Positions 4,553-31,305 of a stretch of 64,000 bases of DNA are shown here, piece after piece. The notes under the pieces were generated by a model, which saw nothing but the letters and a program-made list of their open reading frames with translations, made no database searches and was not told the origin of the DNA. The position numbers and the translations under genes are program-made. This stretch comes from Chondrosia reniformis (lineage: Eukaryota > Porifera > Demospongiae > Chondrillida > Chondrillidae). Positions within the stretch are counted from its first letter, which is position 1, and the number at the start of each line of letters is the position of its first letter. Where the stretch lies: positions 6,710,501-6,774,500 of the forward strand of contig OX359189.1 in assembly GCA_947172415.1 (NCBI GenBank). Reading direction: 5' to 3'.

Positions 4553-5247
4553 ATGCAAGGACACCTAAAATTAGTCACAACTGTAGTAACAGTTCTCTGC
4601 TCAATTGGAGCAGTACCTGCAGCTCCTAAAGTTGACTGCCGATCAGCACGGAGCACATTTTGCCATGAATATTGTAAGTCATCAGAATTGTGTGGAATTG
4701 TTTATAAAAAGTAGTTACTGTGGTTCAGCTTGTAAATTGTAAGTATTTGCAACTTCATTCTACAGTAACATGTGTAAAAGTAGAAGATGGAACAAGTGTA
4801 TCTTGTGTCAATGATGAGGTCTATCTACTATTCAGACTTGAGTTTTACCTCAATCAGATAACTGCAAACATGACTGTGGCCAGCCTATGTCCAGAATGTA
4901 TTACAGAGACTGCTATTGAAGGACTAGATAATGGAGTCATGTACATGTTTGACTTTACAAAGGCTGCAAAGAATCTTACAGGAACACACACTTTTATAGC
5001 AGCTTATAAACCAGAGGCAATGAATCAATTTTTCATTATTGAGCAGTGTTGCAACAAAACTGAACAGATTCAATTGGAAACTGAAATCAGTATAACTATG
5101 AAAGGTAATTTGAATACTAACTTTACAGAACACTATATAAATTATATGATATTTATATTTAAACATTTTGTAGACAAAATCAGTGCTAAAGCATCAGTTC
5201 TACCTCTCCTGAAAAAGTGGACTACAATTCTACTCAATGATATTTGA
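4553..5247 (+). CDS. Orphan eight-cysteine secreted protein, paralogue A
   Basis: Exons 4553-4673, 4766-5104 and 5174-5247 give 177 residues, with both introns in phase 1. Exon 1 encodes a signal peptide (about residues 1-24, hydrophobic VTTVVTVLCSIGAV) and the first two cysteines (VDC...TFC). Exon 2 encodes the core: TC...VSC, then NMTVASLCPEC, GLDNGVMYMFDF, NLTGTHTFIAAY and IEQCCNK. Exon 3 encodes a short amphipathic helix-like tail (LLKKWTTILLNDI). There is no membrane segment, so a secreted protein is expected. The two N-glycosylation motifs are NMT and NLT. I do not recognise the domain from any named family. The model is supported by six paralogues with the same exon phases. ORFs on the opposite strand of exon 2 recur in every copy and are shadows. 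Confidence 0.85.
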
Positions 5248-6905
5248 TTTATTTACCTAACTTTCGAACAGAAACAATACATTATGAATTATTATTACAA
5301 TATTATCAAATGTGTATCTTATTGCTGTATCCTATATATTCTACTAAACATTAATATTTTTCCAAAAAAGCAACATTTGGCTAATGTTCTATAGTTACTG
5401 TAGAACTACCGTATATACATAGGTATATAATTATCCTAAATAGGCTGGCTGTTCTATCTTTATAATATAATATACACATTCATTAAGGGTTTGAAGGAAA
5501 CTCTTGACAGGGTCTCAGATAGGACAACCAATGACAATTAATTGCACGACATACTTTTAGGGAGCCATAATATGTATGAACCCAGCGGAGAAGATGAAAG
5601 AAGGGAAAAGAAGGAAGAAAAGACTCCTGTATCCTCATACAAAGCTCTCTTCAGGTTTAGTTCCCCTATAGGCTCTTTTACAGAATAGGCATATACGTAG
5701 CATGTAGGAAAATGGTATCTTAGATTTTTCATGAAGGTCTAAATATAAATTTGACTGGTACTGCATCCACACAAACATTGGGGTATACATACGTACACAA
5801 TTAAGGTATAAAACTTTACTGGACATCACTAACGACTTTGTGAGATACAATAGTGTCTGTACGTATATTTATTTAGATGTTGTCTATATAATTAAATTGG
5901 GTATATAAAATACCTCTGCTGCCTGTCATAGAGCATTCAGTTGTGTAAATACAATCTTGGTCTGACTATATATACTTTAGACAAATAAAATTAAATACGT
6001 AGTTCTAGTGAAGCCATTTTGGAGCAAAGTGGTACTATAGGATTGCCGTGATTACTATAACCTCATTTTGTGTTAATTTTATAGAAACAAATGCATTAAA
6101 GAGATTACATGTTGCATTCTCCAACCAAACTTAATTTAAGGATTTTTTCTAACTAAGTCAAAACTATAATCATCTTTTGTATGGTTTCAACTTTTCAACT
6201 TTTTGAGCACCTAAGAGGATTGACATCTGCTGACCAATTAACATCAGTAGAATGAAGAAGACTCTCTGGGTCAAAGCTTTCAACAAAAGATTTACAAAAA
6301 TGCGGTCTAAATATTAGATGCTGAAAAGAATAATATAAAGCCTTATTGACAATACCTTTTTATAACTTGACTATACTAAGGAAGACAAACATGCAATGTA
6401 AAGAGATAAACCAGACATTCTATATGAATGATTGTATACTCTATTTTGAGTTTCCTAAAATTGTTCTTATACCTTATTAAAACTAGTAAATTTAGTATAT
6501 ATACATACGTATATGTCTGACCATCCATGGGTCCATATACGTATACATTTTGTATGGTATATACATACGTATATAGTACATAGCTATGAATATAAAGTGG
6601 ATCATGGATAGAAAAACTTCATATTGCTGTTAAAATAATTATATAGTGTGAGCTAAAGTGATAATGTGATTCTGAAACATGCACAATGAAAGTATATCAC
6701 ATCTGGATGCACACAATAACCTCAATTTGCCAAGTAATTGTGATAAAATGACCATAACAACTTATATTTATATATAAACAGTTGATATAGGTATTATACT
6801 AAGTATGCATACGTACGTTATCAACCAGGATATATATACCTTTTTTGTTATTTGGGAAATTATAACATAATATTATCATAGTCTCAAAATAGCTCTTACT
6901 TTCTA
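5248..6905. other. Intergenic, no supported gene
   Basis: Apart from a dispersed element copy at 5538-5733, the stretch is AT-rich with many atacgtat runs. I see no coding exon or RNA gene. Two minus-strand ORFs at 5538-5850 lie in or beside the dispersed element. Confidence 0.55.
5538..5733 (-). repeat. Copy of the CATG-flanked dispersed element
   Basis: Read on the minus strand it starts after CATG (5730-5733) with gaaaaatct-like sequence and runs through ttttcctacatgcta, cctataggggaactaaacc and caggagtcttttcttcc. The same string occurs at 47366-47474 and 58385-58622 on the plus strand, and in diverged form at about 10840-10985, 15350-15490 and 19900-20045 on the minus strand. It contains a 64-codon ORF, but the element is not present as a spliced gene anywhere in the window. 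Confidence 0.65.
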
Positions 6906-6911
6906 TCTGCT

Positions 6912-6933
6912 TGTGGTCGATTGACTATAAAAG
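6912..6933 (+). promoter_or_regulatory. Putative promoter of paralogue B: RUNX-like and TATA motifs
   Basis: tgtggtc (6912-6918) lies just before tataaaag (6926-6933), which sits 89 bp before the ATG at 7022, a normal TATA spacing for a short 5' UTR. No ETS word like that of A, C, D and E is seen here. Confidence 0.4.
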
Positions 6934-7021
6934 ACTCTGCATTAAGGAGGGCAGAAATTAAGACGTGAAAGAAGAAATAGACTCATAATTATTTCAACAA
7001 AAGACTACTTCAGTTACGGAA

Positions 7022-8074
7022 ATGTTTGGAGGTTTGAAATTAGTCTTCATTGCTTCAATAGTTTGTACTGCTCTTACCACAGCCATTGACTGTAGTGAAG
7101 AGGTTAAGAAAGCTAATTGCCATAAATATTGTAAGTTTACAAAGAAATACTTATACTATATATGGGAAACGCTTATATTACTACATACGTACGTACGTAC
7201 ACTCTCAGTTGAATAATACTGAATGCAACAATGCCTAATTACTGGATTACATGGACTGGCTGCAGAAAGCATTTTATATAACCACAGAGAGTAGATGGTA
7301 ATTGATATATTGCCTATGATTATCATTTTGTATGTGATACCAAAAAAGTGATCAAAAAGATATTATATATATTAGAAATTTGATTAACTGGTCGATCCCC
7401 AAATAACTGTAATTAACCATCTTCTGACTATTAACCACATATATCAATACCGCATCACACATTGCAGATGAATACATTCATCTTCCTACACATGTGCTTA
7501 TATGTCTACTTTACTTTGCCTTACCATGTAGTAATATGCCAAAGAGATGAGAGCAAATCAACAATTTATTGTGCATATAGCAATATCAGTTATGCAATAT
7601 TTAGGATTCAATGGTATCTCAATCAGACTACTGCAAACATGACAGTGGCCAGCCTATGCCCAGAATGTATTACAGAGACTGATATTGAAGGACTAGATAA
7701 TGGAGTCATGTACACATTTGACTTTACAAAGGCTGCAAAGAATCTTACAGGAACACACACTTTTATAGCAGCTTATAAACCAGAGGCAATGAATCATTTT
7801 ATTGTAATTGAGCAGTGTTGCAACAAGGCACAGCAAATCCAATACCAAACTGAAATTTCGATTAAGGGTAATCTTATAGTAATAAGTAAAATACATAGGC
7901 ATAATAAACATTACTTACTAACAGCTATGTAAATCTAAATCACTATATTATATACACATAGGTGAAACAGGAGTGAAATCTTCAGTTCTCTCTCTTTTGA
8001 AAACTTGGACCGATATTCTCATTGAATATACTGAAAAGGAATCTGAAGATCTAGCACCACAGTGCAGAGACTAA
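7022..8074 (+). CDS. Orphan eight-cysteine secreted protein, paralogue B
   Basis: Exons 7022-7130, 7532-7867 and 7962-8074 give 185 residues with phase 1 introns. Exon 1 has a signal peptide (FIASIVCTALTTA) and cysteines IDC...NC. The start of exon 2 differs strongly from the other members (LICQRDESKSTIYC...FRIQWYL). From NQTTANMTVASLCPEC onward it is almost the same as A-F, including GLDNGVMYTFDFTKAAKN and IEQCCNK. Exon 3 is longer than in the others and ends with an extra cysteine (LAPQCRD). The acceptor of exon 2 (catgtag) is the weakest in the family. Secreted, function unknown. This copy shows best that the first third of exon 2 evolves fast while the rest is held constant. Confidence 0.8.
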
Positions 8075-9195
8075 ATTTCTGACTTTATATACACCATTGA
8101 ATATATAATGATAAGCTTTTAGTTTTCCATTGTAAAAATTTGTGCAGACTATAAAACAAATTCTGACATGCTACAAAAATCTTTACTTTGTAATAATATA
8201 TTATTCAAAATTTACAGTTACAGTATATGTACATTGAACATATGTATATTATACATATTATATTGACACATATATAATAATAATATTAATAATAAATATC
8301 ATATCTGGGCTATATGCCTCTAAAATTAGGCTTATAGTGTTGTTAATAACAATAGAAACCTAATGATTCTGATTGGCAGCTACTAACTAATTTACAGAAA
8401 TAAACATATTTAATAGTCAATTAACCATGAGATAGGAGTATACTTCCTCATGAAAACATGAAACACAAGTAGTATAGATGCATCCCAAGAGCTGCTCTAT
8501 TATTAATATGTACTACATGTATTTTTGTTTACCTGAACGTGTTGTGTGTGTATATACCATAATACTTCGAATAGTACAAATAGTTGCATTTGGTGTATAT
8601 AAAATTAATAATATGTGAAATATATATTATATATTGTACATCAATCAATCAATCAATCAATTACCCATATGCCTGGTGTGGCACGTAGGGCCATACATAA
8701 CAGAAAGCAGACACAGTCAGACAGTTACAAAAGATCAATTCAGTTAGTCATGCATATCTTCCTCCACAAATTGCTGTCTTGTGCAACTTCTTGTATATTG
8801 TACATAATGATGTTTATTATACATGACTAATCAATTCGAAAGTGATAAAGCATACACATATCATCCAATGGTACCAATAAAATGTTCAATCATGCATATA
8901 TATGTACTAACTTCATCTATAAAGGAACAGTCTAAAGTTAATGCATACTGGATTTGGGCTGGTAGTAAGACAACTACAACATACGTACAAGGTCACTTGC
9001 TATATATATGCCTACTCTGTAAATAAACAAACATACCTAGATTTAGCATAGATCCTATATCTTCAACCAAAGCTCTCTCCAGGTTTAGTTCCCTAAAGGC
9101 TTTCTATTTTAGGACCTACTTCGCTATTTATATTTGCTTGACAATCCGTTGTGTGTATGTAGCATACAGGCTATTGTCATCTATAGGCCGGTTTA
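8075..9195. other. Intergenic, no supported gene
   Basis: AT-rich DNA with a short (TCAA)5 microsatellite at 8641-8660 and a worn piece of the CATG-flanked element near 9070-9110. The ORFs at 8615-9026 show no domain and no splice context. Confidence 0.55.
8641..8660. repeat. (TCAA)5 microsatellite
   Basis: Five uninterrupted copies of tcaa. Confidence 0.9.
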
Positions 9196-9463: not shown

Positions 9464-9835
9464 TGGGATTTTCCTGTATGCTAAATAAGAGACATGTAAA
9501 GAGTCCTGAAACAGCACATATAGCATGACCTTGAATAATTGGAATTTTTGTAGCATGGATAAATGTAAATTCCCTATGTACATCCACCCACATTGTACAT
9601 GATTATTACCAGCCCAACCCTGTATGCATAATCTTTAGACTAGTCTAAAGTTTATGCATACAGGGTTGGGCTGGTAATAAGACATCATGCACAGTGGATG
9701 TACATAGGGAATTTACATATATCCATGTTACAAAAATTCCAATAATACAAGGGTCATGCTATATCTGCTGTTTCAGGACTTTTTGCATGTCTCTTATTCA
9801 GCAATGTGGGTTAACGGGAAAATCCCAACACATAT
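9464..9835. repeat. Long palindrome in tandem unit 1
   Basis: Two arms of about 170-190 bp meet near 9638. tgtaaattccctatgtacat on the left matches atgtacatagggaatttaca on the right, and attaccagcccaaccctgta matches tacagggttgggctggtaat. Units 2 and 3 carry only the right-hand arm, so the palindrome is an inverted duplication private to unit 1, or one arm was lost elsewhere. Confidence 0.85.
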
Positions 9836-12048
9836 TAGAGGAGCTGATGTATAAGAAAGTACATGTATCCAGTATGACCACCAAATATTTAGTGGTTGTA
9901 CTTATGTAATGAGACTGATTAGAAGTTTAAAATACAATTCCATTATCTTTCATTTATGTGACCTATAATTGACAAATGAAATTTCATTGCATATTAAGCT
10001 CATATGAAACCTTTTAAGACTGCATTTGAGAGTACTCTAAGAAGGTACAGTATATCCTTCATGGTAAAAAACACTTCCCTGTTCCCATGTATTAAAGACA
10101 CTATAATATGACCATCTACGTACTAACTGCAGCATTTTATCTCCCGATACTAGAGTACTATTACAAGAACGGAGCAACATGGATGTAAATAGAAGTGATA
10201 GTGCAGGTCACTATGAAACTAAAGCATTTTATATTAGCAATCACTGATATACGTACATATTTACAGCAACAGAAACATTTTGAACTGCTGTGCATATTGC
10301 AATTTCATAACCATATTTATGCTATTATTATTTGTGATGTCAGCTCTTGATTTAGCATCCCAACATTGTCCTCAGCTAAATTTAACTTCAACATCCTGCA
10401 CAAATGACATTACTTTGCACAGTCATTGATATCTACAAGATTTGAAACAAACATATCCTTTTTGGATACTTATTGAGAATGATAATCACTTCATAGACCA
10501 CTGATGCATTTAACTGCACTTTCATAATAGGTACACTAGTACTTAACAGAAGTATATACAATAATGACATCATATACGATAATACAGAAATGAATTCTTA
10601 GTTTCCCTTTTTAATAACAAAACATCACTATAATAATATCCATTTCATTATTCAATTTTAATTATTGACTGGTATGAGTATACATATACAAGCTGACAAG
10701 TGGTAAGGCTGCCCTGATAAATACAAACATTACTATATACTAATTTATCCATATGCGTAAGTATAGAGAATTACGTACATATATTTGATTGTTAGAATAA
10801 ACAGGAAGCACAAATGGAACTTTGCTGTGAATAGCTGTCTCACCCAGTGAAGCAAAGAAGTAAGAGAAGACTGCTGTATCTTCCCCCAAAGTTCTCACTA
10901 GGCTTAGTTCCCAATAGGCTTTTTATAATTAATTTATTACAGAGTAGGCATAGCACATAGGAAAATGGTGTATTAGATTATTTATATGTTGTAACTCAGT
11001 GGCACAGCACTGATGGTTTTCCCTCCTCGTGAAATTGGTAAAAGTGGTTTAATTATCACTGGAATTGGAAAGTGTGATAAACTACTAGCTCTGAGATACT
11101 AATAATTCAGGTAAGTGAGGATTCAGATATGTTTTGGTAACCTGTATATATTTTGTTATTAGAATGTGTTCAAAATGTTAACAACTTCTTTTATACTGTC
11201 TTGTACGCTAGCTGCAATACAACACTTACGTATGTAGTTGGGCAATAAACATTAATATAGATAAAGGTACTGTACGTATATGTCTTATTCTAAAATAAAT
11301 AGATAAGGTATATATCTTATTCTAAAATTAGCAAAGAATAAAAGCATACAATTTAAATTAGTGATCATGAATACATACCTTTCAAAGTTTATCCACAGAG
11401 AATTCCGAGACTATTGAATTTAGTCACTACTGTTCAGTTGCAGTTACGTCAACAGCTCCTAAAAATTAAATGTCAAGGTTTAATCTTTTCAGATTCTCTC
11501 CGCAGATAGACATAAATGTATTCAAATCCAGACTACATGTAAAGAATGGAGTAATCTTTGACCCCATACAATGTGAAGCTTTGCTGTTTGTGGTATGGTG
11601 TCAGAGGGAGAATCCTTTCTTGGTCCTTCTACAAGCCCTAACTGTAACCATATAGTTACCCAATAGAGAATACAGGGGGCGGAAATATATAAAGGTCAAC
11701 TGTATAGTCTAATTTTTATGCATACTTGGTTGATATAGTTATAGGACATGATCATATATAGTCAGATGTGCATAGAAAGTTTAAATTTATCAATACCACA
11801 AAAATTCCAATTATAAAAGGTCACACTGCTTTAGGATTCCTATACTAGTTGTGGTATACCTCAGTAAAGTAGGGAATTACAGGGAAATATCTCACCCACA
11901 TATGTGGTCAAAAACACTATGCAAATCAATATATGTATATAATATACTCATCAATATATATCATTTGTACAGCTGTTTACATAAGAGGTAGGTCACTATC
12001 TATTTCTAAAGGGAAAATTAATTACATCACTGCTCCAGTTTCAGCTTT

Positions 12049-12074
12049 ACTTCCTGTGTAAGGTGTATTTAAAG
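12049..12074 (+). promoter_or_regulatory. Putative promoter of paralogue C: ETS motif and weak TATA
   Basis: acttcctgt (12049-12057) is an ETS-type word. tatttaaag (12066-12074) occupies the place where D and E have a good tatataaaag box, so the TATA of C is degenerate. The upstream block gctccagtttcagctttac is shared with D and E. Confidence 0.4.
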
Positions 12075-12177
12075 AGGACATTTCACTGGACAAATACAAG
12101 CTGCAAAAAGCAAGCAAAAAGTAGAAGAAGAAGTTTATAAAAGTTGAAGATTTTTAAGGAATTAACTGGTTGAGAAA

Positions 12178-12919
12178 ATGGTTGACCAATTGAAATCACT
12201 GAAAGTGGCCATCTCCGTTCTCTGTTTAGCTGTAGTCTGCTCATCTACAGCCATAACCTGCAAAATAGTCGAGAACCTATATTGTTCAGATTTTTGTAAG
12301 TACTCAGTATTGCAACTTTTTCATTATATTGATAATGAGTGTATATATGGCAAAATCACCCACTAACGGATTTAGGTATAATACTAATTTTAAAATTAAT
12401 ATTAAATTACTACTTTTTTCTACAGTAACTTGTGTAAAAGTAGAAGATGGAACAAGTGCATCTTGCATCTATGACAAGGCAGTGTATCCACTATTCAGAC
12501 TGGAGTTTTACCTCAATCAGATAACTACAAACATGACAGTGGCCAGCCTATGTCCAGAATGTATTACAGAGACTGCTATTGAAGGACTGGATAACGGAGT
12601 CATGTACACATTTGACTTCACAAGAATTGCAAAGAATCTTACAGGAACACACACTTTTATAGCAGCTTATAAACCAGAGGCAATGAATAACTTTTTCCTT
12701 ATTGAGCAGTGTTGCAATAAGACACAGCAAATCCAATACCAAACTGAAATTATAGTGGGAGGTAAGCAGTAAAATTATTATGTGATTGGTGAGGTTGGTA
12801 ATTTACACTCTGTCATTATTATAATCTCTGTAGAGAAAGATAAATCAGTTCTTACTCTTCTGAATAAATGGACTACAATATTAGCTAAATCTGTAGAGGA
12901 AGGATCAGTGGATTGTTAA
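12178..12919 (+). CDS. Orphan eight-cysteine secreted protein, paralogue C
   Basis: Exons 12178-12295, 12426-12761 and 12834-12919 give 179 residues, phase 1 introns. Exon 1: signal peptide with hydrophobic core VAISVLCLAVVCSSTA, then TCKIVENLYCSDF. Exon 2: TCVKVEDGTSASC, then the conserved CPEC, GLDNGVMYTFDF, NLTGTHTFIAAY and IEQCCNK blocks. Exon 3: SVLTLLNKWTTILAKSVEE, ending VDC. Compared with D and E it differs at a few residues (for example KVEDGTSA against NVEDGASV). Secreted, function unknown. The terminal cysteine is shared with D and E but not with A or F. Confidence 0.85.
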
Positions 12920-13609
12920 TTTTACTGCAAAAATCAAAATAATCATTTTAATTCTATGAAAACTGAACTATTCAATATTATGAACTTTACATTTTTATTT
13001 CTTACTGTAAATACACCTACGTAGCAAAGTTTAAAGCTTATACATTTCAAATACTAATCATGAAATTACATAGTATAACACATCTACTATTGCACCAATA
13101 ACACTATTTAAATCTCCCAGGTGGCCATTTTTAGCCATTTACCTACGTATATATTTACTTAACATAATTATCCTTATCTATATACGTATATACGTATACC
13201 TTTGCTTGACAATCAGTTGTGTGTACGTAGCATACAGGCAACTGTCATCTATAGGTCCGAACAATTCAATATTATAATATATATAAATTACAATTATAAT
13301 GACTTTACGTGATTGTACAATAATATGACTATAGATAATAGAATTATAGTTGGATAAGTTTATGTAGATTAAAAACAATGTCAGATTCTAGCCTCAGAAT
13401 TTGTTAGCTCAATGAAGTCTGGTACTCTTAGCTTCTTGGATTGGTGTCTAGATCCTCTTAGGCATGTCACGGCAATCAGATTTGTCCATGTAGCACAGGC
13501 AATAGTTTTTGGTTAGAACCATATCAGTGCCTTCAATTAATCAATTATAGTCTAAACTTGTATTTATAGAGGAAGCTATTCACAATATTCTATGGGTGTT
13601 TGTAGATTA

Positions 13610-13945
13610 TTTTTATTAATAATTTATTAATTTATTAAAGTGACATATGCCGGAAGGCACTAGGCAAAGCTGGGACCTCTGAATCACAAAGATGCAGATC
13701 GCAGTAGTGAGAAATTGAGCATACATCTGATTGTGGTTGCGTATGGTTGCCTCTTCTTTTCTGAAATCATATGTGCTAATCGTTTGTAAAAAATTGAAGC
13801 TGATTTTCCAATTCCTCCTATTGTATTGAAAATCAAAGGAGTAAATGAGGCTAGTTCTACTTCATTGATGTGTTGCTCATATAGTCGTCTCTTGGTCTGC
13901 TCATGATGGGCATAACAGGCGGGGATTCTGAACTTGGATCAACAT
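13610..13945 (-). pseudogene. Retroelement C-terminal fragment in unit 1
   Basis: Read on the minus strand, about 13938 down to 13684 gives an open frame with CYAHHEQTKRRLYEQHINEV, ASFTPLIFNTIGG, ASIFYKRLAHMISEKKRQP and LNFSLLRSASL, then a stop. From memory this pattern (EVE-x-xSFTPL, GGxG, YKRLA, FSLLRSA) is typical of the C-terminal end of reverse-transcriptase-bearing elements of invertebrates. It is followed by a TAA-rich 3' tail at about 13610-13640. The rest of the element is absent, so this is a 5'-truncated dead copy that was later duplicated with the tandem unit. Confidence 0.6.
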
Positions 13946-16536
13946 ATCTATCTATATCTATAGGTCAGTTTATATAATTAGACTTTTACAAAACCTTTAG
14001 ATACACTTGATTTTAGTTAGTACATAGTCAACAGGAGATAGATGATATAAATTAGTATACTTTGCCTCAGCTCTGCAGCCTACTTTATGGAATGAATACA
14101 TAAGCCTCAAGGGATATCCCCTTGTCATTACACAAACATGTAACTCAACAGTGGTTAATCAACTATATGAGACAGTGGACATGGAGCGGAAGGAAGAGAA
14201 AAGGTCATAGGTATAGTCTAAAGTTTATGCATACTGGGTTGGGCTGGAAATAAGACATCATGCACAATGTGGGTGGATGTACATAGGGTACCCTTGCTAC
14301 AAAAATTCTAATAATACAAGGGTCATGCTATATCTGCTGTTTCAGGACTTTTTGCATGTCTCTTATTCAGCAATGTGGGTTAACGGGAAAATCCCAACAC
14401 ATATTAGAGGAGCTGATGTATAAGAAAGCACATGTATCCAGTATGACCACCAAATATTTAGTGGTTGTACTTATGTAATGAGACTGATTAGAAGTTTAAA
14501 ATACAATTCCATTATCTTTCAGTTATGTGACCTATAATTGACAACAGAAATTTCATATGTATATTAAGCTCATATGAAACCCTTTAAGACTGCATTTGAG
14601 AGTACTCTAGGAAGGTATATCCTTCATGGTAAAAAACACTTCTCTGTTTCATGTATTAAAGACACTATACTAGGATCATCTACTAAACTGCAGCATTTTA
14701 TCTCCCGATACCAGAGTACTAATACAAGAACGGAGCAACATGGATGCAAATAGAAGTGATAGTGCAGAACACTATGAAACTAAAGCATTTTATATTACCA
14801 ATCACTGAATATTTACAGAAACAGAAACATTTTGAACTGCTGTGCATATTGCAACTTTTATAACCATATTTATGCTATTACTATTTGTGATGTCAGCTCT
14901 TGATTTAGCATCCTAACATTGTCCTCAGCTAAATTTAACTTCAACATCCTGCACAAACGACATTACTTTGCACAGTCATTGATATCTACAAGATTTGAAA
15001 CAAACATATCCTTTTTGGATACTTAATAAGAATGATAATCACTTCATAGACCACTGATGCATTTAACTGCACTTTCATAATAAATACACTACTACTTAAC
15101 AGAAGTATATACAATAATGACATCATATACAATAATACCGAATTGAATTCTTAGCTTCCCTTTTCAATAACAAAACATCACTATAATAATATCCATTTCA
15201 TTATTCAGTTTTAATTATTGAGTTTTAATTATTATTGAATTATTTTATTATTAATTATGAGTATGCGTAATTATAGAGAATTACATACGTGTATTTGATT
15301 GTTAGAATAAACAGGAATCACAAATGGAACTTTGCTGTGAATAACTGTCTCACCCAGGGGAGCAAAGAAGTAAAAGAAGACTGCTGTATCCTCCCCCAAA
15401 GCTCTCACTAGGCTTAGTTCCCAATAGGCTTTTTATAAAATTAATTTATTACAGAGTAGGCATAGCACATAGGAAAATGGTGTATTAGATTATTCATATG
15501 TTGTAACTCAGTGGCACAGCACTGATGGTTTTCCCTCCTCGTGAAATTGGTAAAAGTGGTTTAATTATCACTGGAATTGGAAAGTGTGATAAACTACTAG
15601 CTCTGAGATACTAATATATTCAGGTAAGGGAGGATTCAGATATGTTTTGGTAACCTGTATATATTTTGTTATTAGAATGTGTTCAAAATGTTAACAACTT
15701 CTTTTATACTGTCTTGTACGCTAGCTGCAATACAACACTTATGTATGTAGTTGGGCAATAAACATTAATATAGATAAAGGTACGGTACGTATATGTCTTA
15801 TTCTAAAATTAGCAAAGAATAAAAGCATACAATTCAATTAGTGATCATGAATACATACCTTTCAAAGTTTATCCACTAAGAATTCCGAGACTATTGAATT
15901 TAGTCACTACTGTTCTGTTGCAGTTACGTCAACAGCTCCTAAAAATTAAATGTCAAGGTTTATTCTTATCAGATTCTCTCCGCAGATAGACATAAATGTA
16001 TTCAAATCCAGACTACATGAAAAGAATGGAGTAATCTTTGACCCCATACAATGTGAAGCTTTGCTGTTTGTGGTATGGTGTCAGAGGGAGAATCCTTTCT
16101 TGGTCCTTCTACAAGCCCCAGCTGTAACCATAGAGTTACCCAATAGAATACAGGGGGCGGAGATATATAAAGGTCAACTGTATAGTCTAATCTTTATGCA
16201 TACTTGGTTGATATAGTTATAGGACATGATCATATATAGTCAGATGTGTATAGAAAGTTTAAATTTACCCATACCACAAAAATTCCAATTATAAAAGGTC
16301 ACACTGCTTTAGGATTCCTATACTAGTTGTTGTATACCTCAGTAAAGTAGGGGATTACAGGGAAATATCTCACCCACGTATGTGGTCAAAAACACTACGC
16401 AAATCAATATAAGTATATAATATACTCATCAACATATATCGTTTGTACAGCTGTTTACATAAGAGGTACGTAGGTCACTATCTATTTCTAAAGGGAAAAT
16501 TAATTACATCACAGTGACTGCTCCAGTTTCAGCTTT

Positions 16537-16560
16537 ACTTCCTGTGTACGTATATAAAAG
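16537..16560 (+). promoter_or_regulatory. Putative promoter of paralogue D: ETS motif and TATA box
   Basis: acttcctgt (16537-16545) is followed by tatataaaag (16551-16560), 114 bp before the ATG at 16674. The arrangement is the same in unit 3. Confidence 0.45.
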
Positions 16561-16673
16561 GGAACACAGGGAGACATTTCACTAAACAAACACAAGCTGA
16601 AAAAAGCAAGCAAAAAGTAGAAGAAGAAGTTTATAAAAGTTGAACATCTTTAAGGAATTAACTGGTTGAGAAG

Positions 16674-17423
16674 ATGGTTGACCTATTGAAATCACTGAAA
16701 GTGGCTATCTCCGTTCTCTGTTTAGCTGTAGTCTGCTCATCTGCAGCCATAAACTGCAAAATAGTTGAGAACCTATATTGTTCAGATTTCTGTAAGTACT
16801 CAGTATTGTAACTTTTTCTTTATATTGATAATTAGTGTGTATATGGCAAAATCACCCATGCACTAACGGATTTAGGTGCGTATACTGCTAATTTTAAAAT
16901 TAATATTAAATTGCTACTTTTTTCTACAGTAACTTGTGTAAATGTAGAAGATGGAGCAAGTGTATCTTGCATCTATGACAAGGCAGTGTATCCACTATTC
17001 AGACTTGAGTTTTACCTCAATCAGGTAACTGCAAACATGACAGTGGCCAGCCTATGTCCAGAATGTATTACAGAGACTGCTATTGAAGGACTAGATAATG
17101 GAGTCATGTACACATTTGACTTCACAAGAATTGCAAAGAATCTTACAGGAACACACACTTTTATAGCAGCTTATAAACCAGAGGCAATGAATAACTTTTT
17201 CCTTATTGAGCAGTGTTGCAACAAGGCACAGCAAATCCAATACCAAACTGAACTTATAGTGGGAGGTAAGCAGTAAAATTATTATGTGATTGGTGAGGTT
17301 GGTAATTTACACTCTGCCATTATTATAATCTCTGTAGAGAAAGATAAATCAGTTCTTACTCTTCTGAATAAATGGACTACAATATTAGCTAAATCTGTAG
17401 AGGAAGGATCAGTGAATTGTTAA
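16674..17423 (+). CDS. Orphan eight-cysteine secreted protein, paralogue D
   Basis: Exons 16674-16791, 16930-17265 and 17338-17423 give 179 residues with phase 1 introns. Signal peptide with core VAISVLCLAVVCSSAA, then NCKIVENLYCSDF. Exon 2 begins TCVNVEDGASVSC and continues with the constant block (CPEC, GLDNGVMYTFDF, IEQCCNK). Exon 3 ends VNC. Its coding sequence appears identical to paralogue E, so the duplication is very recent or is kept uniform by gene conversion. Identical exons, clean splice sites and TATA boxes argue that both copies are live. Confidence 0.87.
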
Positions 17424-18109
17424 TTTTACTGCAAAAATCAAAATAATCATTTTAATTCTATGAAAACTGAACTATTCAATATTATGAACTTTATAATTAC
17501 ATTTTTATATCTTACTGTAAATACACCAAACAAAGTTTAAAGTATATACATTTCAAATACTAATCATGAAATTACATAGTATAACACATCTACTATTGCA
17601 CCAATAACACTATTTAAATCTCCCAGGTGGCCATTTTTAGCCATATACCTATATATTTACTTAACATAATTATCTTTATAAATATACGTATATACGTATA
17701 CCTTTGCTTGACAATCAGTTGTGTGTACGTAGCATACAGGCAACTGTCATCTATAGGTCCGAACAATTCAATATTATAATAATATATAAATTACAATTAT
17801 AATGACTTACAATAATAATTGTACAATAATATGACTATAGATAATAGAATTATAGTTGGATAAGTTTATGTAGATTAAAAACAATGTCAGATTCTAGCCT
17901 CAGTATTTGCTAGCTTGATGAAGTCTGGTACTCTTAGCTTCTTGGATTGGTGTCTAGATCCTATTAGGCATGTCACGGTAATCAGATTTTTCCATGTAGC
18001 ACAGGTAATCGTTTTTGGTTAGAACCATATCAGTGCCTTCAATTAATCAATTATAGTCTACACTTGTATTTATAGAGGAAGCTATTCATAATATTCTATT
18101 GGTGTTTGT

Positions 18110-18465
18110 AGATTATTTTAATTAATAATTTATTAATTTATTATTAATTTATTAAAGTGACATATGCCGGAAGGCACTAGGCAAAGCTGGGACCTCTGAA
18201 TCACAAAGATGCAGATCGCAATAGTGAGAAATTGAGCATACATCTGATTGTGGTTGCGTATGGTTGCCTCTTCTTTTCTGAAATCATATGTGCTAATCGT
18301 TTGTAAAAATTGAAGCTGATTTTCCAATTCCTCCTATTGTATTGAAAATCAAAGGAGTAAATGAGGCTAGTTCTACTTCATTGATGTGTTGCTCATATAG
18401 TCGTCTCTTGGTCTGCTCATGATGGGCATAACAGGCGGGGATACTGAACTTGGATCATCATATCT
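18110..18465 (-). pseudogene. Retroelement C-terminal fragment in unit 2
   Basis: The same fragment as at 13610-13945, carried along in the tandem duplication, with a longer TAA/TTA tail at about 18110-18155. A one-base change in the A-run near 18308 relative to unit 1 alters the frame, so this copy is also dead. Confidence 0.6.
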
Positions 18466-21085
18466 ATCTATATCTAAAGGTTGATTTATATAATTAGACC
18501 TTTACAAAACCTTTAGATACACTTGATTTTAGTTAGTACATAGTCAACAGGAGATATATGATATAAATTAGTATACTTTGCCTCAGCTCTGCAGCCTACT
18601 TTATGGAATGAATACATAAGCCTCAAGGGATATCCCCTTGTCATTAAACAAACATGTAACTCAACAGTGGTAATCAACTATATGAGACAGTGGACATGGA
18701 GCGGAAGGAAGAGAAAAGGTCATAGGTATAGTCTAAAGTTTATGCATACTGGGTTGGGCTGGAAATAAGACATCATGCACAATGTGGGTGGATGTACATA
18801 GGGAATTTACATATACCCATGCTACAAAAATTCCAATAATTCAAGGTCATGCTATATCTGCTGTTTCAGGACTTTTTGCATGTCTCTTATTCAGCAAATG
18901 TGGGTTTACGGGAAAACCCCAACACATATTAGAGGAGCTGATGTATAAGAAAGTACATGTATCCTGTATGACCACCAAATATTTAGTGGTTGTACTTATG
19001 TAATGAGACTAATTAGAAGTTTAAAATACAATTCCATTATCTTTCAGTTATGTGATCTATAATTGACAACAGAAATTTCATATGTATATTAGGCTCATAT
19101 GAAACCCTTTAAGACTGCATTTTGAGAGTACTCTAGGAAGGTATATCCTTCATGGTAAAAAACACTTCTCTGTTTCATGTATTAAAGACACTATACTAGG
19201 ACCATCTACTAAACTGCAGCATTTTATCTCTCTCTACAAGAATGGAGCAACATGGATGCAAATAGAAGTGATAGTGCAGAACACTTTGAAACTAAAGCAT
19301 TTTATATTACCAATCACTGATATATTTACAGAAACAGAAACATTTTGAACTGCTGTGCATATTGCAATTTCATAACCATATTTATGCTATTATTATTTGT
19401 GATGTCAGCTCTTGATTTAGCATCCCAACATTGTCCTCAGCTAAATTTAACTTCAACATCCTGCACAAACGACATTACTTTGCACAGTCATTGATATCTA
19501 CAAGATTTGAAACAAACATATCCTTTTTGGATACTTAATAAGAATGATAATCACTTCATAGACCACTGATGCATTTAACTGCACTTTCATAATAGGTACA
19601 CTAGTACTTAAATACAATAATGACATCATATACGATAATACCGAATTGAATCTATTCTTAGCTTCCCTTTTTAATAACAAAACATCACTATAATAATATC
19701 CATTTCATTATTCAGTTTTAATTAATGACTGGTATGAGTATACATATACAAGCTGACAATACATGGCTTGTCTGGTCAGGCTGTCCTGATAAATACAAAA
19801 CATTACTACTAATTAATCCATATAAATATAGAGAATTATGTACGTCTATTTGATTGTTAGAATAAACAGAAAGCACAAATGGAACTTTGCTGTGCATAGC
19901 TGTCTCACCTAGTGGAGCAAAGAAGTAAGAGAAGACTGCTGTATCTTCCCCCGAAGCTCTCACTAGGCTTAGTTCCCAATAGGCTTTTTATATAATTAAT
20001 TTATTACAGAGTTGGCATAGCACATAGGAAAATGGTGTATTAGATTATTCATATGTTGTAACTCAGTGGCACAGCACTGATGGTTTTCCCTCCTCATGAA
20101 ATTGGTAAAAGTGGTTTAATTATCACTGGAATTGGAAAGTGTGATAAACTACTAGCTCTGAGATACTAATATATTCAGGTAAGGGAGGATTCAGATATGT
20201 TTTGGTAACCTGTATATATTTTGTTATTAGAATGTGTTCAAAATGTTAACAACTTCTTTTATATTGTCTTGTACGCTAGCTGCAATACAACACTTACGTA
20301 TGTAGTTGGGCAATAAACATTAATATAGATAAAGGTACGGTACGTATATGTCTTATTCTAAAATTAGCAAAGAATAAAAGCATACAATTTAATTAGTGAT
20401 CATGAATACGTACCTATCAAAGTTTATCCACTAAGAATTCCGAGACTATTGAATTTAGTCACTACTGTTCTGTTGTAGTTACGTCAACAGCTCCTAAAAA
20501 TTAAATGTCAAGGTTTAATCTTTTCAGATTCTCTCCGCAGATAGACATAAATGTATTCAAATCCAGACTACATGAAAAGAATGGAGTAATCTTTGATCCC
20601 ATACAATGTGAAGCTTTGCTGTTTGTGGTATGGTGTCAGAGGGAGAATCCTTTCTTGGTCCTTCTACAAGCCCCAGCTGTAACCATAGAGTTACCCAATA
20701 GAATACAGGGGGCGGAGATATATAAAGGTCAACTGTATAGTCTAATCTTTATGCATACTTGGTTGATATAGTTATAGGACATGATCATATATAGTCAGAT
20801 GTGTATAGAAAGTTTAAATTTACCCATACCACAAAAATTCCAATTATAAAAGGTCACACTGCTTTAGGATTCCTATACTAGTTGTTGTATACCTCAGTAT
20901 AGTAGGGGATTACAGGGAAATATCTCACCCACGTATGTGGTCAAAAACACTACGCAAATCAATATAAGTATATAATATACTCATCAACATATATCGTTTG
21001 TACAGCTGTTTACATAAGAGGTACGTAGGTCACTATCTATTTCTAAAGGGAAAATTAATTACATCACTGCTCCAGTTTCAGCTTT

Positions 21086-21109
21086 ACTTCCTGTGTACGT
21101 ATATAAAAG
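21086..21109 (+). promoter_or_regulatory. Putative promoter of paralogue E: ETS motif and TATA box
   Basis: acttcctgt (21086-21094) and tatataaaag (21100-21109), as in paralogue D. Confidence 0.45.
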
Positions 21110-21222
21110 GGAACACAGGGAGACATTTCACTAAACAAACACAAGCTGAAAAAAGCAAGCAAAAAGTAGAAGAAGAAGTTTATAAAAGTTGAACATCTTT
21201 AAGGAATTAACTGGTTTAGAAG

Positions 21223-21972
21223 ATGGTTGACCTATTGAAATCACTGAAAGTGGCTATCTCCGTTCTCTGTTTAGCTGTAGTCTGCTCATCTGCAGCCATA
21301 AACTGCAAAATAGTTGAGAACCTATATTGTTCAGATTTCTGTAAGTACTCAGTATTGTAACTTTTTCTTTATATTGATAATTAGTGTGTATATGGCAAAA
21401 TCACCCATGCACTAACGGATTTAGGTGCGTATACTGCTAATTTTAAAATTAATATTAAATTGCTACTTTTTTCTACAGTAACTTGTGTAAATGTAGAAGA
21501 TGGAGCAAGTGTATCTTGCATCTATGACAAGGCAGTGTATCCACTATTCAGACTTGAGTTTTACCTCAATCAGGTAACTGCAAACATGACAGTGGCCAGC
21601 CTATGTCCAGAATGTATTACAGAGACTGCTATTGAAGGACTAGATAATGGAGTCATGTACACATTTGACTTCACAAGAATTGCAAAGAATCTTACAGGAA
21701 CACACACTTTTATAGCAGCTTATAAACCAGAGGCAATGAATAACTTTTTCCTTATTGAGCAGTGTTGCAACAAGGCACAGCAAATCCAATACCAAACTGA
21801 ACTTATAGTGGGAGGTAAGCAGTAAAATTATTATGTGATTGGTGAGGTTGGTAATTTACACTCTGCCATTATTATAATCTCTGTAGAGAAAGATAAATCA
21901 GTTCTTACTCTTCTGAATAAATGGACTACAATATTAGCTAAATCTGTAGAGGAAGGATCAGTGAATTGTTAA
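21223..21972 (+). CDS. Orphan eight-cysteine secreted protein, paralogue E
   Basis: Exons 21223-21340, 21479-21814 and 21887-21972 give 179 residues that match paralogue D at every position I compared. Introns are also nearly identical. A tggttta in place of tggttga just before the ATG is one of the few differences. See D for the domain description. If both copies are expressed, they raise dosage rather than diversity. Confidence 0.87.
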
Positions 21973-22332
21973 TTTTACTGCAAAAATCAAAATAATCATT
22001 TTAATTCTATGAAAACTGAACTATTCAATATTATGAACTTTATAATTACATTTTTATATCTTACTGTAAATACACCTAACAAAGTTTAAAGTATATACAT
22101 TTCAAATACTAATCATGAAATTACATAGTATAACACATCTACTATTGCACCAATAACACTATTTAAATCTCCCAGGTGGCCATTTTTAGCCATATACCTA
22201 TATATTTACTTAACATAATTATCTTTATAAATATACGTATATACGTATATTTATAAAGAAAAAGTGGTCCTCAGACAATAAGAATTCAGTGGAAGCTATC
22301 CGCTGGTTTGTGAAAATAACTTTCACTGACTA

Positions 22333-23565: not shown

Positions 23566-23598
23566 AACCCTGCCCAAATATGGTAAACTAAGACATTT

Positions 23599-24621: not shown

Positions 24622-25371
24622 ATGGCTGGACTACTTAAATCACTGAATGTAGCTGTCACAATTCTCTTTATGGCTGCTGATACCTCAGCTGTAGCAATCA
24701 ACTGCTCGTCAATACAGAGCTCCTACTGTTCAGACTTTCGTAAGTTTACATCGTGACTTTTTCATTAAATCTAATGAAATATAGTGCATATCAATATTAC
24801 ACTAAGAGATTTAGGTACATACATATCACTTTAAATATTAAGTGCTAATAGTAATTAAAACTCTCTTTATTCTACAGTAACATGTGTACAAGTAGAAGAT
24901 GGAACAAGCGTATCTTGTGTCTATGACAGGTTGAGCTATACAACATTCAGACTTGAGTTTTATCTCAATCAGATAACTGCAAACATGAGAGTGGCCAGCC
25001 TATGTCCAGAATGTATTACAGAGACTGCTATTGAAGGACTAGATAATGGAGTCATGTACACATTTGACTTCACAAGGATTGCAAAGAATCTTACAGGAAC
25101 ACACACTTTTATAGCAGCTTATAAACCAGAGGCAATGAATAACTTTTTCCTTATTGAGCAGTGTTGCAACAAGACACAGCAAATCCAATATCAAACTGAA
25201 ATTATAGTGGGAGGTAAGTATTACATGTGATTGGTGTGATTGGTATGTACAGTGAGTAGCTTATATATTATTTAAATCCCTGTAGACCAAATTAAATCAG
25301 TTCTCACTCTTCTGAATAAATGGACAACAATATTGGCAGAATACGTTAAGAAGGAACAAGAGGATTTTTAG
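24622..25371 (+). CDS. Orphan eight-cysteine secreted protein, paralogue F
   Basis: Exons 24622-24739, 24878-25213 and 25286-25371 give 179 residues, phase 1 introns. Exon 1: MAGLLKSLNVAVTILFMAAD-type signal peptide, then NCSSIQSSYCSDF. Exon 2: TCVQVEDGTSVSCVYDRLSY, then the constant block, with NMRVASLCPEC in place of NMTVASLCPEC, so the first N-glycosylation motif is lost. Exon 3 ends KKEQEDF with no terminal cysteine. Splice sites are canonical. It is more diverged from C-E than they are from each other. It lies outside the tandem units, but it shares the N-terminal LLKSL motif with them, so it is an older duplicate of the same lineage. Confidence 0.85.
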
Positions 25372-26877: not shown

Positions 26878-27007
26878 ATAGAATAAGGATTTCTTCTAAC
26901 TGCATCTAACTTATCTTTGGAAAGGGTCATCTTTTGACTTTGGGAGCGTATTCTTTCTGCCAAACGTTTCGACCCTGGGGGTCTTCTTCAGTCAACCCTT
27001 TCCAAAG
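26878..27007 (-). ncRNA. Hammerhead-ribozyme-like mobile element, copy 1 (with 12-bp target duplication)
   Basis: On the minus strand: stem arm atctttggaaagggt, core CTGAAGA, helix GACCC/GGGTC, GAAA, ACGT, then the complementary arm accctttccaaagat (plus positions 26913-26927 and 26995-27009). CUGANGA...GAAA with a short helix between them is the conserved hammerhead core, and the long arms would form stem I. The element is flanked by attgaggcatta (26866-26877) and attgaagcatta (27008-27019). The related repeat at about 3797-3815 has one attgaagcatta and no insert. This is the mark of insertion by retrotransposition. Ribozyme activity is not shown. Confidence 0.6.
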
Positions 27008-27656
27008 ATTGAAGCATTACATACCAAAGTAGGCACAGATGGAGGTTCTAGCATACAGTCAATATAAACATGAGTTTTACTGAATTTTGCTGTTGTCTGG
27101 TCACTGAAAAGTGCTGACTGTGAATGTCATTAACATCAGAGAGTACAGTATATCATAATTCTCTAAGTAAAGATGATTAGAAAAAATGGCCGCCTTATTC
27201 AACAAATTATTAAATATCACCTCTTAAATCGACAACAGGTTTTCGTTATATTTGCAGTTAATGGTTAATGTCATCAATATATATTATTAAGTGAGATAAA
27301 GGTCAAGGTTATGTCAGAATATACGTATATATAATTATACACAGCTTTGATGACATAAGAAGGGAATTATAGAGGGAAGTTTCCTTTAAATTGAGACATT
27401 CCTAAAATTCTCAAACATGTTTACCTATTTGGAACAGCATGTACATATCCAATATTTGACAAAGTAAGCACTTGTGTAATGTAAACAATAAACAAGAAGG
27501 CGCATAGCATGCATCCTTGCGTACTTTGAATGTAGGTGGGTGGCTCTTCCTCATGTTGTCATTAGTGAAGAAGGTATTACTACAAAGTCCTTTACAGCTA
27601 CACTGAGTCAGGAACCAATCTAATAATAACTAGAGAACAATAAAATAGTAGAAGAT

Positions 27657-27792
27657 GTAGGGATGGCACAAAAAGCACAGAAACAAGAAAGGAATGTTAC
27701 ACAGTGAAGCATTATTTATGCATGAATCATACAACACCCTTGTATGTAGGATACATGCATAGGGAAAACGAAACAGCCGGTACCATCCCTAC
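27657..27792. mobile_element. MITE with GTAGGGATGG ends, copy 1
   Basis: Left end gtagggatggcac (27657-27669) and right end gtaccatccctac (27780-27792) are inverted repeats with one mismatch. The inner block cagaaacaagaaaggaatgt, followed by tacacagtgaagca, recurs in the element at 54833-54953. Non-coding. Confidence 0.7.
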
Positions 27793-28375
27793 ATAGAGAG
27801 TACGGTAGATACATAACAAGGAATTAAGACAATAGAACATGTATCATTTAATGAAATGTTTAGATGCTGGGAGTACCAATTTATAAACAAAAGTCTTAGA
27901 TTTGTATACAACAAACAACTGCCTTGAAAAGCAAGCAAGTTCAATATAGTGTTTAGAAACTGTAGTACATATATGTAAATATGCTTTAATTCTGTAAATC
28001 CCCATGTTTACGCTTGTTCTGTGTGTCCAGAGTACAAGAATGTCTGGAATGCTAAACTTGTTTATTTTACCTGTTTACTAAAACATGTTAATGCGGCTAG
28101 GTGATCCTGGCTGTAAACTACCCTCATTTAGGTCTGTTAGGTTAGCAGTGTATTTGAGAAATGGGAAATATTGTACACATGAGAAATGCTTGTGTACTCA
28201 GCTTATATCACTTCAGTGTCACTAGTATAGTTAGTGTAGGAGTGTTAACCTCAAAACCACTATACCTTAATATACATATATATATATACCACGTTAACAT
28301 GAAGATTTTTAACAATTGTAAATATACATCATCTAATTCATACAACTACAGAAGCAAATGAATTGAAGGAGGTGG

Positions 28376-28444
28376 GCGCTACAACTTTGAAACCTATGGC
28401 GCTGCAACTTTCTAGTCTATGGTGCTGCAATTTCTAATCTATAT
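28376..28444. repeat. Three-copy tandem repeat of about 23 bp
   Basis: Three imperfect copies of the type g[cg]gctgcaacttt.ta.tctatg lie head to tail. Confidence 0.7.
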
Positions 28445-29099
28445 GTACTATAGAGTTTAAGCATTTCATGTACAAAATACAGCAAGCAGGTGAGTCTAAT
28501 GCTGTACATGTAATATCATTATTATGTAGAGGGAATTTACCTTTGTAATTCTCCAGTCCATGGAAGCAAAACTAATTATGGGTCATCTTGTATTAATGTG
28601 CACCACTATGCAGTGGGTAATTTATCTTTACAATTCCCCTACCCACAGAAATGAAAAGGAAAATTACAAATAAACATTAAACTATACAGCCAGTGACCTT
28701 TTTATTATGGGGATTTATATGGTTTGTGTGGTTTTAACTTTCCACATATCTACCCATATATGGCAAGGTAGGTGCATCAAAGTGCAAGCAATCCACTATA
28801 TCAGGTTTAACAAAGTATTCACATGCATGTACGTACAACCTAGACACATCTTTGATGTTATCTACAAAACATCTCCTATATTTCCCTCCTGGATGATAAT
28901 GTAATGAAAATATTTCAGTAGTGTCAAGGGAAACTCCCTTAAGAAATTACAACCAGTAAAACTAGTTGTTAGGCGTATAAGAGGAATCTATTTCTGAGCA
29001 CTGACAAGCTTACTCAGGAAGCTTATTAAGGAATCCTTATTCTATTAAGCTTACTCAGTATATTACATATACACAAAATAAGAGGATTCTGGTGTGAGA

Positions 29100-29160
29100 T
29101 TATAATAATAAAAGTAATAATAATAATAATGATTGTTTATTATTGTGACATGCCATACAA
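29100..29160 (-). repeat. Retroelement 3' tail with (TAA)n
   Basis: A TAA/TAATAA run is followed by tttattattgtgacatgcc, the same junction as at 2068 and 13610 (TAA tail next to ttattaaagtgacatatgcc). Only the 3' end remains. Confidence 0.4.
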
Positions 29161-29345
29161 AGAGTAAAATTAATAAGGATGACCCAACCAGTTCAGGTTT
29201 ATAAGTCACATTACAAAGGAAAATCATGATAAATAGTCTTTGTATTGTATATGTAAGCGGGTAATCAGGTGAAACCAACTTGTTTCAAAAATTGTTTCAA
29301 TAAGTACCTTCTGTGACTGTGGTATTGTATACTGGTCTACGTTTA

Positions 29346-29476
29346 CCATGACTAGTCAATGTACATAGTTAATTTCCTAAATACTTACTATTAACTAGTC
29401 AACTATATCTATATGGGCTTTCAGAGAGTGTTTCAAACTGTTAAACTGATTCCCATTCATACCAAAAGGGTTTTAC
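29346..29476. repeat. Dispersed repeat, copy 2
   Basis: Same sequence as at 23168-23305, with small internal deletions. Confidence 0.6.
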
Positions 29477-30562
29477 TATACAGTATTAATATTGAGAAGT
29501 ATAATTATAAAAGTATCGACCCAAACCAATATATCATATAACATATATCTTAACAATATATTATTAGAGAACATAATGAAGAGTATATACTACTAGCCCC
29601 ACTCCTATGCATTCATTGTGATACAGTGAGGAAATCTTTTACTGTAGATTATGAATGATTCAATAGTTACATCCATCATGTAATATCTGTGATTCTACAG
29701 GTTTCAGTATATTTGTATCTGTTATTTTACTGATAATTTAAACCAGTCAAATAGAACACCCTCAATAATAGTAATTTAATGTATTTTTTACAATTTTGTA
29801 ATTCATAAGGATTTACCAATATATTCATTGGCTGTACTTTGAATGTCTTCTCACTATACAGTAAGTGGTGTCATGAGACTTTAATGGTCAGTGATATCCA
29901 GTATTACACATTCCGTATATATTTAACATACCAAGGGCATAATGTATGTCTCTTTATATCAACTAACTCAAACTGTGTTGCTGTAGGTAATATATAACCA
30001 ATGCATCGACAGGCGCATTAGAGATACCATCATTTGGTCAGTTTTATTGGAATCTTGGGAGGCTAAAACCTATCTGTCGCGAAAGTACAAGATCGGCGGT
30101 TATGGTAACTAGAATAGACTTATCATCAAACTCATACACTAATTTGATCTATCCACAATTTCTATGGTGACTTTTTTAAATGTTCGGATCATGCCGCTCG
30201 AAATAATAAACAAAGGAATAACAAGCGGTGCAGGGTAACCCCTTTCGAACCCACCTTATATATGTAGTCTACAAAGATCTCTCTTAAAGAGCGCATTGTT
30301 GATAAACCGGCTTCTCTCGCTCCTATAGCAATAAACTTCATTTTCAATTTCCGTGAGATAACTACTACCACAAGTGCTTATTTATTATTATTAGAATTTC
30401 TGTAAGAGTTTAGACCACGAAACCAGCCACTGATTTGGGATTCTATACCTGCAGACTATAAGATGCAAATTATACTCAATGATCACATAGTGTTTGACTA
30501 TAATTTTGCAAACTGTATAGTTAATACAATAAAATCAATGAAAGTAAAGTAAGAAAGTTTGT

Positions 30563-31305
30563 TTAATGGCGATCTACTTCTTGTAAAAGCTTAGTCCATT
30601 TGATGATCAACTGGATAATATCTCTTTTGCGATCTGTAGAAAAACAATGAGAAATGATAATACTTTTCCACTTTACGGAGAATGATCACATATAAGATTC
30701 TACAGCTTCTGTAGATTGATATACTCATTTACTGATTACCTTGAATTTGAATATGTGTATTGTATTGGATTTGGTCGGTTCTACTGCAACACTGCTGAAG
30801 AATAGGACCCATACGCTTCTGAGCGGCTGGGGAATAAGCTGCTATAAAAGTGTGTATTCCTGTAAGATTCTTTGCAGCCTTTGAGAAGTCAAAAGTGTAC
30901 ATGACTCCATTATCCAGTCCTTCAACCTCATAGCTTTTAACGCATTCTGGACAGATATTATCAACTTCATTTCCATCCAGAACAGCATCAATATAGTAAT
31001 GTATATTTGTAAGGCTGTAACTGGGCCTATCTTGAAGACAGGATATTTGGGGTCCGTCAAACTTCTGACAAGATACTAAGAAAAAGAAATTAATGGTTAA
31101 GATAGCAGCAAGTTATAAGCAATTATACTGTATGTATGTAGCTACGTACATATATATGAATATATGTGACTTTCTAAAACTTACAGAACTTATAACATAT
31201 ATCTTTGGTGTAAGTCTGGCAGCTGATAGGATTGGCAGAAGATAAGATTGAAGAAGTTGATGCAACTATAATGATAGCTGCTAGTAAGAGATATTGTCTT
31301 CTCAT
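30563..31305 (-). CDS. Orphan eight-cysteine secreted protein, paralogue G
   Basis: On the minus strand, exons 31305-31185, 31075-30740 and 30633-30563 give 175 residues, with both introns in phase 1 as in A-F. Exon 1: MRRQYLLLAAIIIVASTSS signal peptide and SCQTYTKDICYKF. Exon 2 starts SCQKFDGPQISC and its first third is unlike the others (IHYYIDAVLDGNEVDNICPEC). It then returns to EGLDNGVMYTFDFSKAAKN, HTFIAAY and LQQCCSRTDQIQY. Exon 3: DIIQLIIKWTKLLQEVDRH. It is the most diverged member and the only one on the minus strand, which marks the edge of the cluster. The nucleotide identity of the GLDNGVMYTF...HTFIAAY stretch with the plus-strand copies is far higher than that of its flanks. Confidence 0.85.

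Follow-up and report, generated by a model that had tools for sequence, protein, structure and literature searches.

A small secreted-type, cysteine-rich multigene family in the demosponge Chondrosia reniformis, with a uniform middle of exon 2

We analyzed a stretch of 64,000 nucleotides of the Chondrosia reniformis genome (the window; contig C1, OX359189.1, positions 6710501-6774500) and find that it carries a cluster of seven three-exon genes, g1 to g7. These genes code for small cysteine-rich proteins that share eight cysteines and have no credible match in the family libraries that we searched. They belong to a family of at least 17 members in the same genome. That the family is real and its product secreted, we regard as close to certain. 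The copies likely arose by tandem segmental duplication. Short-tract, patchy gene conversion within contigs best explains, in our opinion, why the middle of exon 2 is so uniform among the copies; this is not proven, but the silent sites make it moderately better than an even bet. For the whole proposed chain, from duplication and conversion to a secreted protein at work outside the cell, we estimate a probability of about 0.48.

Gene structure and extent of the family

Splicing of each of the seven gene models yields an open frame, 175-185 amino acids long, and all 14 introns are of the GT..AG type and in phase 1 (Table 1). A first-pass annotation of this DNA had proposed seven three-exon genes with phases (1,1), and the models bear it out. 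Its span was exact: g1 has its ATG at 4553 and g7, on the minus strand, at 31305. The inverted outlier that it named is also real: g7 lies on the minus strand and shows 38-40% identity to the other window proteins over the whole protein.

Exon 1 encodes the leader and two cysteines, exon 2 a core with six cysteines, and exon 3 a short tail. We observed a hydrophobic N-terminal stretch in 7/7 window proteins, which is leader-like as predicted from hydrophobicity and agrees with the signal peptide claimed earlier. The same eight cysteines, two from exon 1 and six from exon 2, recur in all seven proteins, as the proposed eight-cysteine plan demands. Extra cysteines occur in the leader of g1-g5 and, in g2-g5, additionally near the C-terminus, and N-glycosylation sequons are present in the window proteins. 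The aligned exon 2 cores measure 111-112 amino acids, matching the expected 112 residues, and CPEC, EGLDNGVMY, AKNLTG, HTFIAAY and QCC are invariant among the seven.

The assembly comprises 117,379,552 bases in 15 contigs, of which C1, C9 and C10 measure 10.41, 7.70 and 7.66 Mb. Using four different cores as genome queries, we obtained the same 17 places each time: 7 on C1, 8 on C9 and 2 on C10. We take this count as a lower bound; the seven annotated genes were genuine, but the family holds at least 17 members and not 7. Two subfamilies stand out, which share 33-42% identity in the genome core searches: the major one consists of the C1 genes with C9_1339 and C9_858, the minor one of the C10 pair and six C9 genes.

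A phase-1 splice border flanks exon 2 on both sides in 10/10 genes outside the window, as found by a script that lists phase-1 candidates only. The first of these borders is placed one residue ahead of the first core cysteine in all 16 distinct cores, a set from which g5 was omitted, as it was from the trees, its coding sequence (CDS) being that of g4; one alignment holds 12/17 members. The motif CP[ED]C is found in 15/16 distinct cores, C10_4781 having CLDC instead. Exon 1 was located for 9/10 outside genes by a script requiring the cysteine pattern and for the tenth by eye. For exon 3, the script succeeded in 4/10, and the other six are by-eye open frames with the acceptor unchecked. With ten lengths taken from joined models, 17/17 members measure 173-185 amino acids, and none of the 17 core exons contains a stop.

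We also built a family hidden Markov model (HMM) from the distinct cores and searched with it, unfiltered, through 2048 open segments taken from the window and from the retrieved cluster flanks. It recovers the 17 known members, and its next best match has E 0.75. This match (L046:1366-1707), beside the C10 pair, was judged to be chance.

To score the tails, we placed windows by hand around the conserved tryptophan of 15 tails (11 distinct) and compared the helical moment with that of 1000 shuffles. For 9/11 distinct tails, no more than 27/1000 shuffles matched the moment. The tail common to five minor C9 genes was borderline (43-56/1000 in repeats), and that of g1 was not distinctive (146/1000). 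The amphipathic tail of the first-pass annotation thus has moderate support: the segment around the tryptophan could form an amphipathic helix.

Table 1. Positions of the family genes and related features. Positions refer to the window unless a contig is named.
Feature	Position	Strand	Description
g1	4553..5247	+	exons 4553-4673, 4766-5104, 5174-5247; 177 aa (amino acids); splice model and translation
g2	7022..8074	+	exons 7022-7130, 7532-7867, 7962-8074; 185 aa; splice model
g3	12178..12919	+	exons 12178-12295, 12426-12761, 12834-12919; 179 aa; splice model
g4	16674..17423	+	exons 16674-16791, 16930-17265, 17338-17423; 179 aa; CDS same as that of g5
g5	21223..21972	+	exons 21223-21340, 21479-21814, 21887-21972; 179 aa; splice model
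g6	24622..25371	+	exons 24622-24739, 24878-25213, 25286-25371; 179 aa; splice model
g7, inverted outlier	30563..31305	-	exons 31305-31185, 31075-30740, 30633-30563; 175 aa; splice model
Tandem units of g3/g4/g5	9640..22260	+	about 4.5 kb each, third about 3.5 kb; unit borders approximate
Middle of g1 exon 2	4888..5013	+	CPEC to AAYKP, 42 codons; low silent divergence in several pairs; equivalents in g2-g7
Seven outside members	C9:1322799-1339114
One outside member	C9:858834-859171
Two outside members	C10:4776473 and C10:4781439

Duplication, selection and gene conversion

Repeated duplication, as first suggested, is visible as tandem duplication: g3, g4 and g5 sit in consecutive units, the third shorter than the others. 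Units one and two are 93-98% identical in 17/18 windows of comparison and 86.5% in the remaining one. Between about 16125 and 17624, units two and three share 99.6-100% identity. Upstream of 16125 they are about 97-98% identical, with one window at 81%; counted as differences between the g4 and g5 units, this is 1.6-3.4% in 7/8 windows and 19% in the eighth.

The coding sequences of g4 and g5 are identical, as would be expected if the family were made of pseudogenes or assembly duplicates. We consider this highly improbable. Since the units of the two genes differ upstream, we rejected the idea that g4 and g5 are an assembly artefact. Decay to pseudogenes is contradicted by the core exons, which are free of stops, and by the substitutions: over the whole CDS, the amino-acid-changing divergence (dN) was below the silent divergence (dS) in 20/20 window pairs that differ.

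This result also fails to bear out the dosage or recognition pressure that had been suggested for the family. In 13 chosen pairs divided into segments, dN was lower in the middle than over the first 40 codons for 11/13 pairs and lower than in the C-terminal segment for 12/13, the rest being ties or near-ties. Among these 13 pairs, dN exceeded dS only in the N-terminal segment of g3-g4 (0.055 vs 0.037), which amounts to five amino-acid changes, and we found no positive selection beyond this one segment. The ends thus appear to be under purifying or relaxed evolution; diversifying selection is not demonstrated.

Silent divergence is distributed unevenly. Several pairs have far fewer silent differences in the middle of exon 2, a segment of about 42 codons, than in its flanks; in these calculations, a dS of -1 means not computable and was taken as saturated. 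C9_1339 and C9_858, which lie about 480 kb apart, are 100% identical in nucleotides over codons 51-75; outside, they are 64-71% identical in the first windows and 47-71% from codon 76 on. In a permutation test with 7/9 major members (g4 and g5 omitted), the longest run of agreeing variable sites in this pair was 32 (codon columns 47-77), reached by 0/2000 permutations. At invariant residues, the pair uses identical codons at 21/23 positions in the block vs 4/11 outside (Fisher p 0.0017), with block borders chosen after viewing the nucleotide identities along the same pair.

Some pairs of window genes behave similarly. For g1-g2, the longest agreeing run was 36 (0/2000 permutations), and dS, at 0.057 in the middle, was 0.865 in the part before it and could not be computed for the part after it. 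At most sites the outlier g7 has diverged from its neighbours, but in the exon 2 middle it is similar to them: dS of g1-g7 and g3-g7 is about 0.2 there and not computable before it. Compared with the C1 genes, g7 has identical codons at 19-22/23 positions inside the block and 5-8/11 outside (g7-g3, 22/23 vs 6/11, p 0.008; g1-g7, p 0.03). In trees of 13/17 members, the branch lengths for middle vs flanks were 0.17 vs 1.07 for g7, near 0 vs 0.38 for g2, and 0.03-0.05 vs 0.23-0.24 for the C9 pair.

We propose that short-tract gene conversion would homogenise the exon 2 middle between copies while the ends diverge. The near-identity of the core, GLDNGVMYTFDF, may then be due in part to gene conversion, and not to function only, because silent sites are also identical in several pairs. 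Some observations weigh against this proposal. The codon contrast of g2-g7 is not significant (19/23 vs 7/11, p 0.39), and the run test for g7 is weak (28-62/2000 in four pairs, uncorrected for the 21 pairs tested). Two pairs show no drop at all, namely g3-g4 (dS 0.074 in the middle vs 0.037 before) and the C10 pair (0.113 vs 0.117). Middle and flank trees have no supported topology conflict (37, 61, 72), so the branch lengths alone speak. In addition, the exon 2 middle is where amino-acid constraint is strongest. We rate gene conversion, and with it the overall reading, no higher because the trees lack supported conflict and two pairs lack the drop.

The main rival to gene conversion is constraint on the nucleotides. 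In this case, the low silent divergence would reflect selection on an RNA structure, a binding site or an overlapping antisense frame, or else amino-acid constraint with little time elapsed. The same segment of exon 2 is affected in several lineages, as such constraint would have it; major genes of C1 and C9 are also less diverged there (g1-C9_858, dS 0.64 in the middle vs 1.19 before), and open antisense frames cover the exon 2 middle. We nevertheless find this explanation unlikely, though worth serious attention. Codon identity in the block is highest within contigs (C9 pair 21/23, C1 genes 19-22/23) and lower between C1 and C9 (13-17/23), which is what gene conversion predicts. The corresponding values outside the block are 4/11 for the C9 pair, 5-10/11 among C1 genes and 3-8/11 for C1 vs C9. 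Furthermore, C10_4776 and C9_1334 show only a small drop (dS 0.77 in the middle vs 1.0).

Searches for relatives and a possible fold

We searched for relatives in Pfam, NCBIfam, PDB sequences, viral contigs, prokaryote genomes and the sponge's own genome. Pfam at E 10 returned nothing for 5/7 window cores. We judged the following matches to be chance: Pfam SfsA (E 0.22, a single match among 12 cores), Pfam DUF3145 (E 0.13) and Serglycin (E 0.15) among five spliced proteins, and NCBIfam sfsA (E 0.0094, the best, for one of 12 cores), LdrP (0.1) and CCXG (0.15). SfsA surfaced in both libraries, each time with 1/12 members. Neither the 7-member profile, nor the 12-member profile, nor g2 matched any PDB sequence. 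One C10 protein gave seven matches there to viral fusion glycoproteins at E 0.06-0.35 and two further matches at E 1.4, which we also attribute to chance because the local alignments around the cysteines were poor. Pattern-seeded searches of the viral contigs and the prokaryote genome collection confirmed no relative. Among the matches listed in open-licence PubMed Central, we found no publication on this family, which is weak evidence of absence. The first-pass annotation had called the core unassignable to any named domain and had suggested a profile search; run against Pfam, NCBIfam and PDB sequences, this search gave chance-level matches only, and the core remains without a credible match in all three.

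A known extracellular fold could have diverged beyond the reach of profile search, for example an immunoglobulin (Ig)-like or other beta-sandwich. We hold this as a tentative alternative, somewhat short of an even chance. The structure model from the seven window cores was unusable (predicted local distance difference test, 39.5; predicted template modelling score, 0.27). The spacing that we assume for Ig strands B, C and E-F can be fitted by eye to SC, IQWYLN and F.F..A...L.G.H.F.A of the family. With this fit, the cysteine, the pair of aromatic residues and a stretch like E-F are spaced as in the Ig I-set (PF07679). For comparison, we took 21 Ig domains from this genome: 20 out of 150 scored, and one that lies beside the C10 pair. 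An E-F block made from them, scored without gaps against 10/16 cores, is best placed exactly at the by-eye register; however, 389/1000 column shuffles reach the score of this placement, and the reversed family scores higher. Profile-profile alignment by hhalign was likewise at shuffle level, its score being reached by 164/200 column shuffles in local and 144/200 in global mode, again with the reversed family higher. Unlike the I-set, the family lacks the F-strand cysteine, the position being Phe or Leu in 12/12 aligned members given the by-eye register, and no Ig family appears among the Pfam matches of cores and spliced proteins at E 10. With both tests at shuffle level, we rejected the Ig-like fold as an assignment and keep it as a rival only.

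True Ig domains do occur in this genome. One (I-set, E 4.4e-12) is found on the minus strand immediately downstream of the C10 pair (L046:71-1707; C10:4772071-4773707), and by eye the exons beside it look Ig-like and fibronectin-like. Clustered Ig and fibronectin III exons are common in the genome, for example at C6:8119000-8205000 (150 scored of 821 and 2147 candidates).

Possible function, surroundings and known systems

An extracellular binding or effector role is plausible for the family, at slightly under even odds. The proteins, stabilised by disulfides, would bind or act as effectors in the extracellular space, with the conserved middle as structural core and the two ends as variable surface; the tail may pack on the core or mediate oligomer or membrane contact. 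Against this stands that no feature observed in the genes or proteins points to a ligand or an activity. The genes and proteins described here are predicted from sequence.

The products may more specifically be antimicrobial or cytotoxic effectors whose tail acts on membranes. Secreted-type, cysteine-rich and multicopy proteins with a potentially amphipathic tail would suit this role, and the available text of PMC12181767, which presents the published C. reniformis assembly odChoReni1.1, reports 53 bacterial bins recovered from the sequenced specimen. By eye, though, the tails are not strongly cationic, and Pfam gave no match to an antimicrobial family for the window cores, the 12 cores or the five spliced proteins. 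The cytotoxic protein of the same sponge, chondrosin, also differs in length and leader. We consider this antimicrobial or cytotoxic role improbable.

At the far end, the family might represent an undescribed extracellular module with its own fold, a set of variable secreted binders of the sponge with a conversion-kept core and diversifiable ends. We regard this as a long shot. If true, it would amount to a repertoire that serves recognition or faces the microbiome, in an animal that lacks adaptive immunity. If the fold is ordinary or the protein structural, the family is one more orphan among many. As a compact family of 17 genes without an assigned domain and with a uniform core vs diverging ends, it provides a defined set for expression, structure and binding tests in a sponge that also yielded many bacterial genomes (PMC12181767, available text).

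The window holds other features around the cluster. Three cysteine-rich repeats lie on the plus strand at 108-350, 803-1054 and about 1500-1611, the third recognised by eye; for the first two, Pfam gives a resemblance to the PLAC domain that falls short of the curated cut-off (E 3.5e-5 and 6.8e-4). By eye only, elements like miniature inverted-repeat transposable elements are seen at 2730-3150 and 9540-9780. An open stretch at 32327-32752 (+), without a Pfam match, has the by-eye appearance of a non-long-terminal-repeat retrotransposon end with a cysteine-histidine knuckle. A class C G-protein-coupled receptor is represented by fragments at 33587-33940 and 35612-35944 on the minus strand, with matches to 7tm_3 (E 4e-16) and, weakly and under the cut-off, to ANF_receptor (E 0.0056). 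A 14-base unit repeated 35.6 times with 98% matches makes up a minisatellite at 43472-43970, which leaves long open frames of repeats on the minus strand. Sushi-domain exons, two by Pfam and others by eye, extend over 55859-63667 (+) and form a receptor gene or tandem genes.

Among known systems, chondrosin is the nearest by source. According to the available text of PMC7459819, it is a cytotoxic secreted protein of C. reniformis of 199 amino acids, with a leader of 21 amino acids cut between AEA and SK and a best BLAST match of E 5.9. The likeness is that of a small secreted protein from the same sponge. Compared by length and leader, and not by alignment, chondrosin is longer than all 17 family members; AEA is absent from 7/7 window proteins, and we noticed none by eye in the other ten. 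Within what that text gives, length and leader rule out chondrosin as a member. With its leader-like start, conserved cysteines and tandem copies, the family fits the descriptive kind of secreted, cysteine-rich multigene families, of which it may be a lineage-restricted one. Reef-building corals have a taxonomically restricted cysteine-rich family, as the title of PMC2652719 states; set side by side by description, the coral and the sponge family are alike in kind only.

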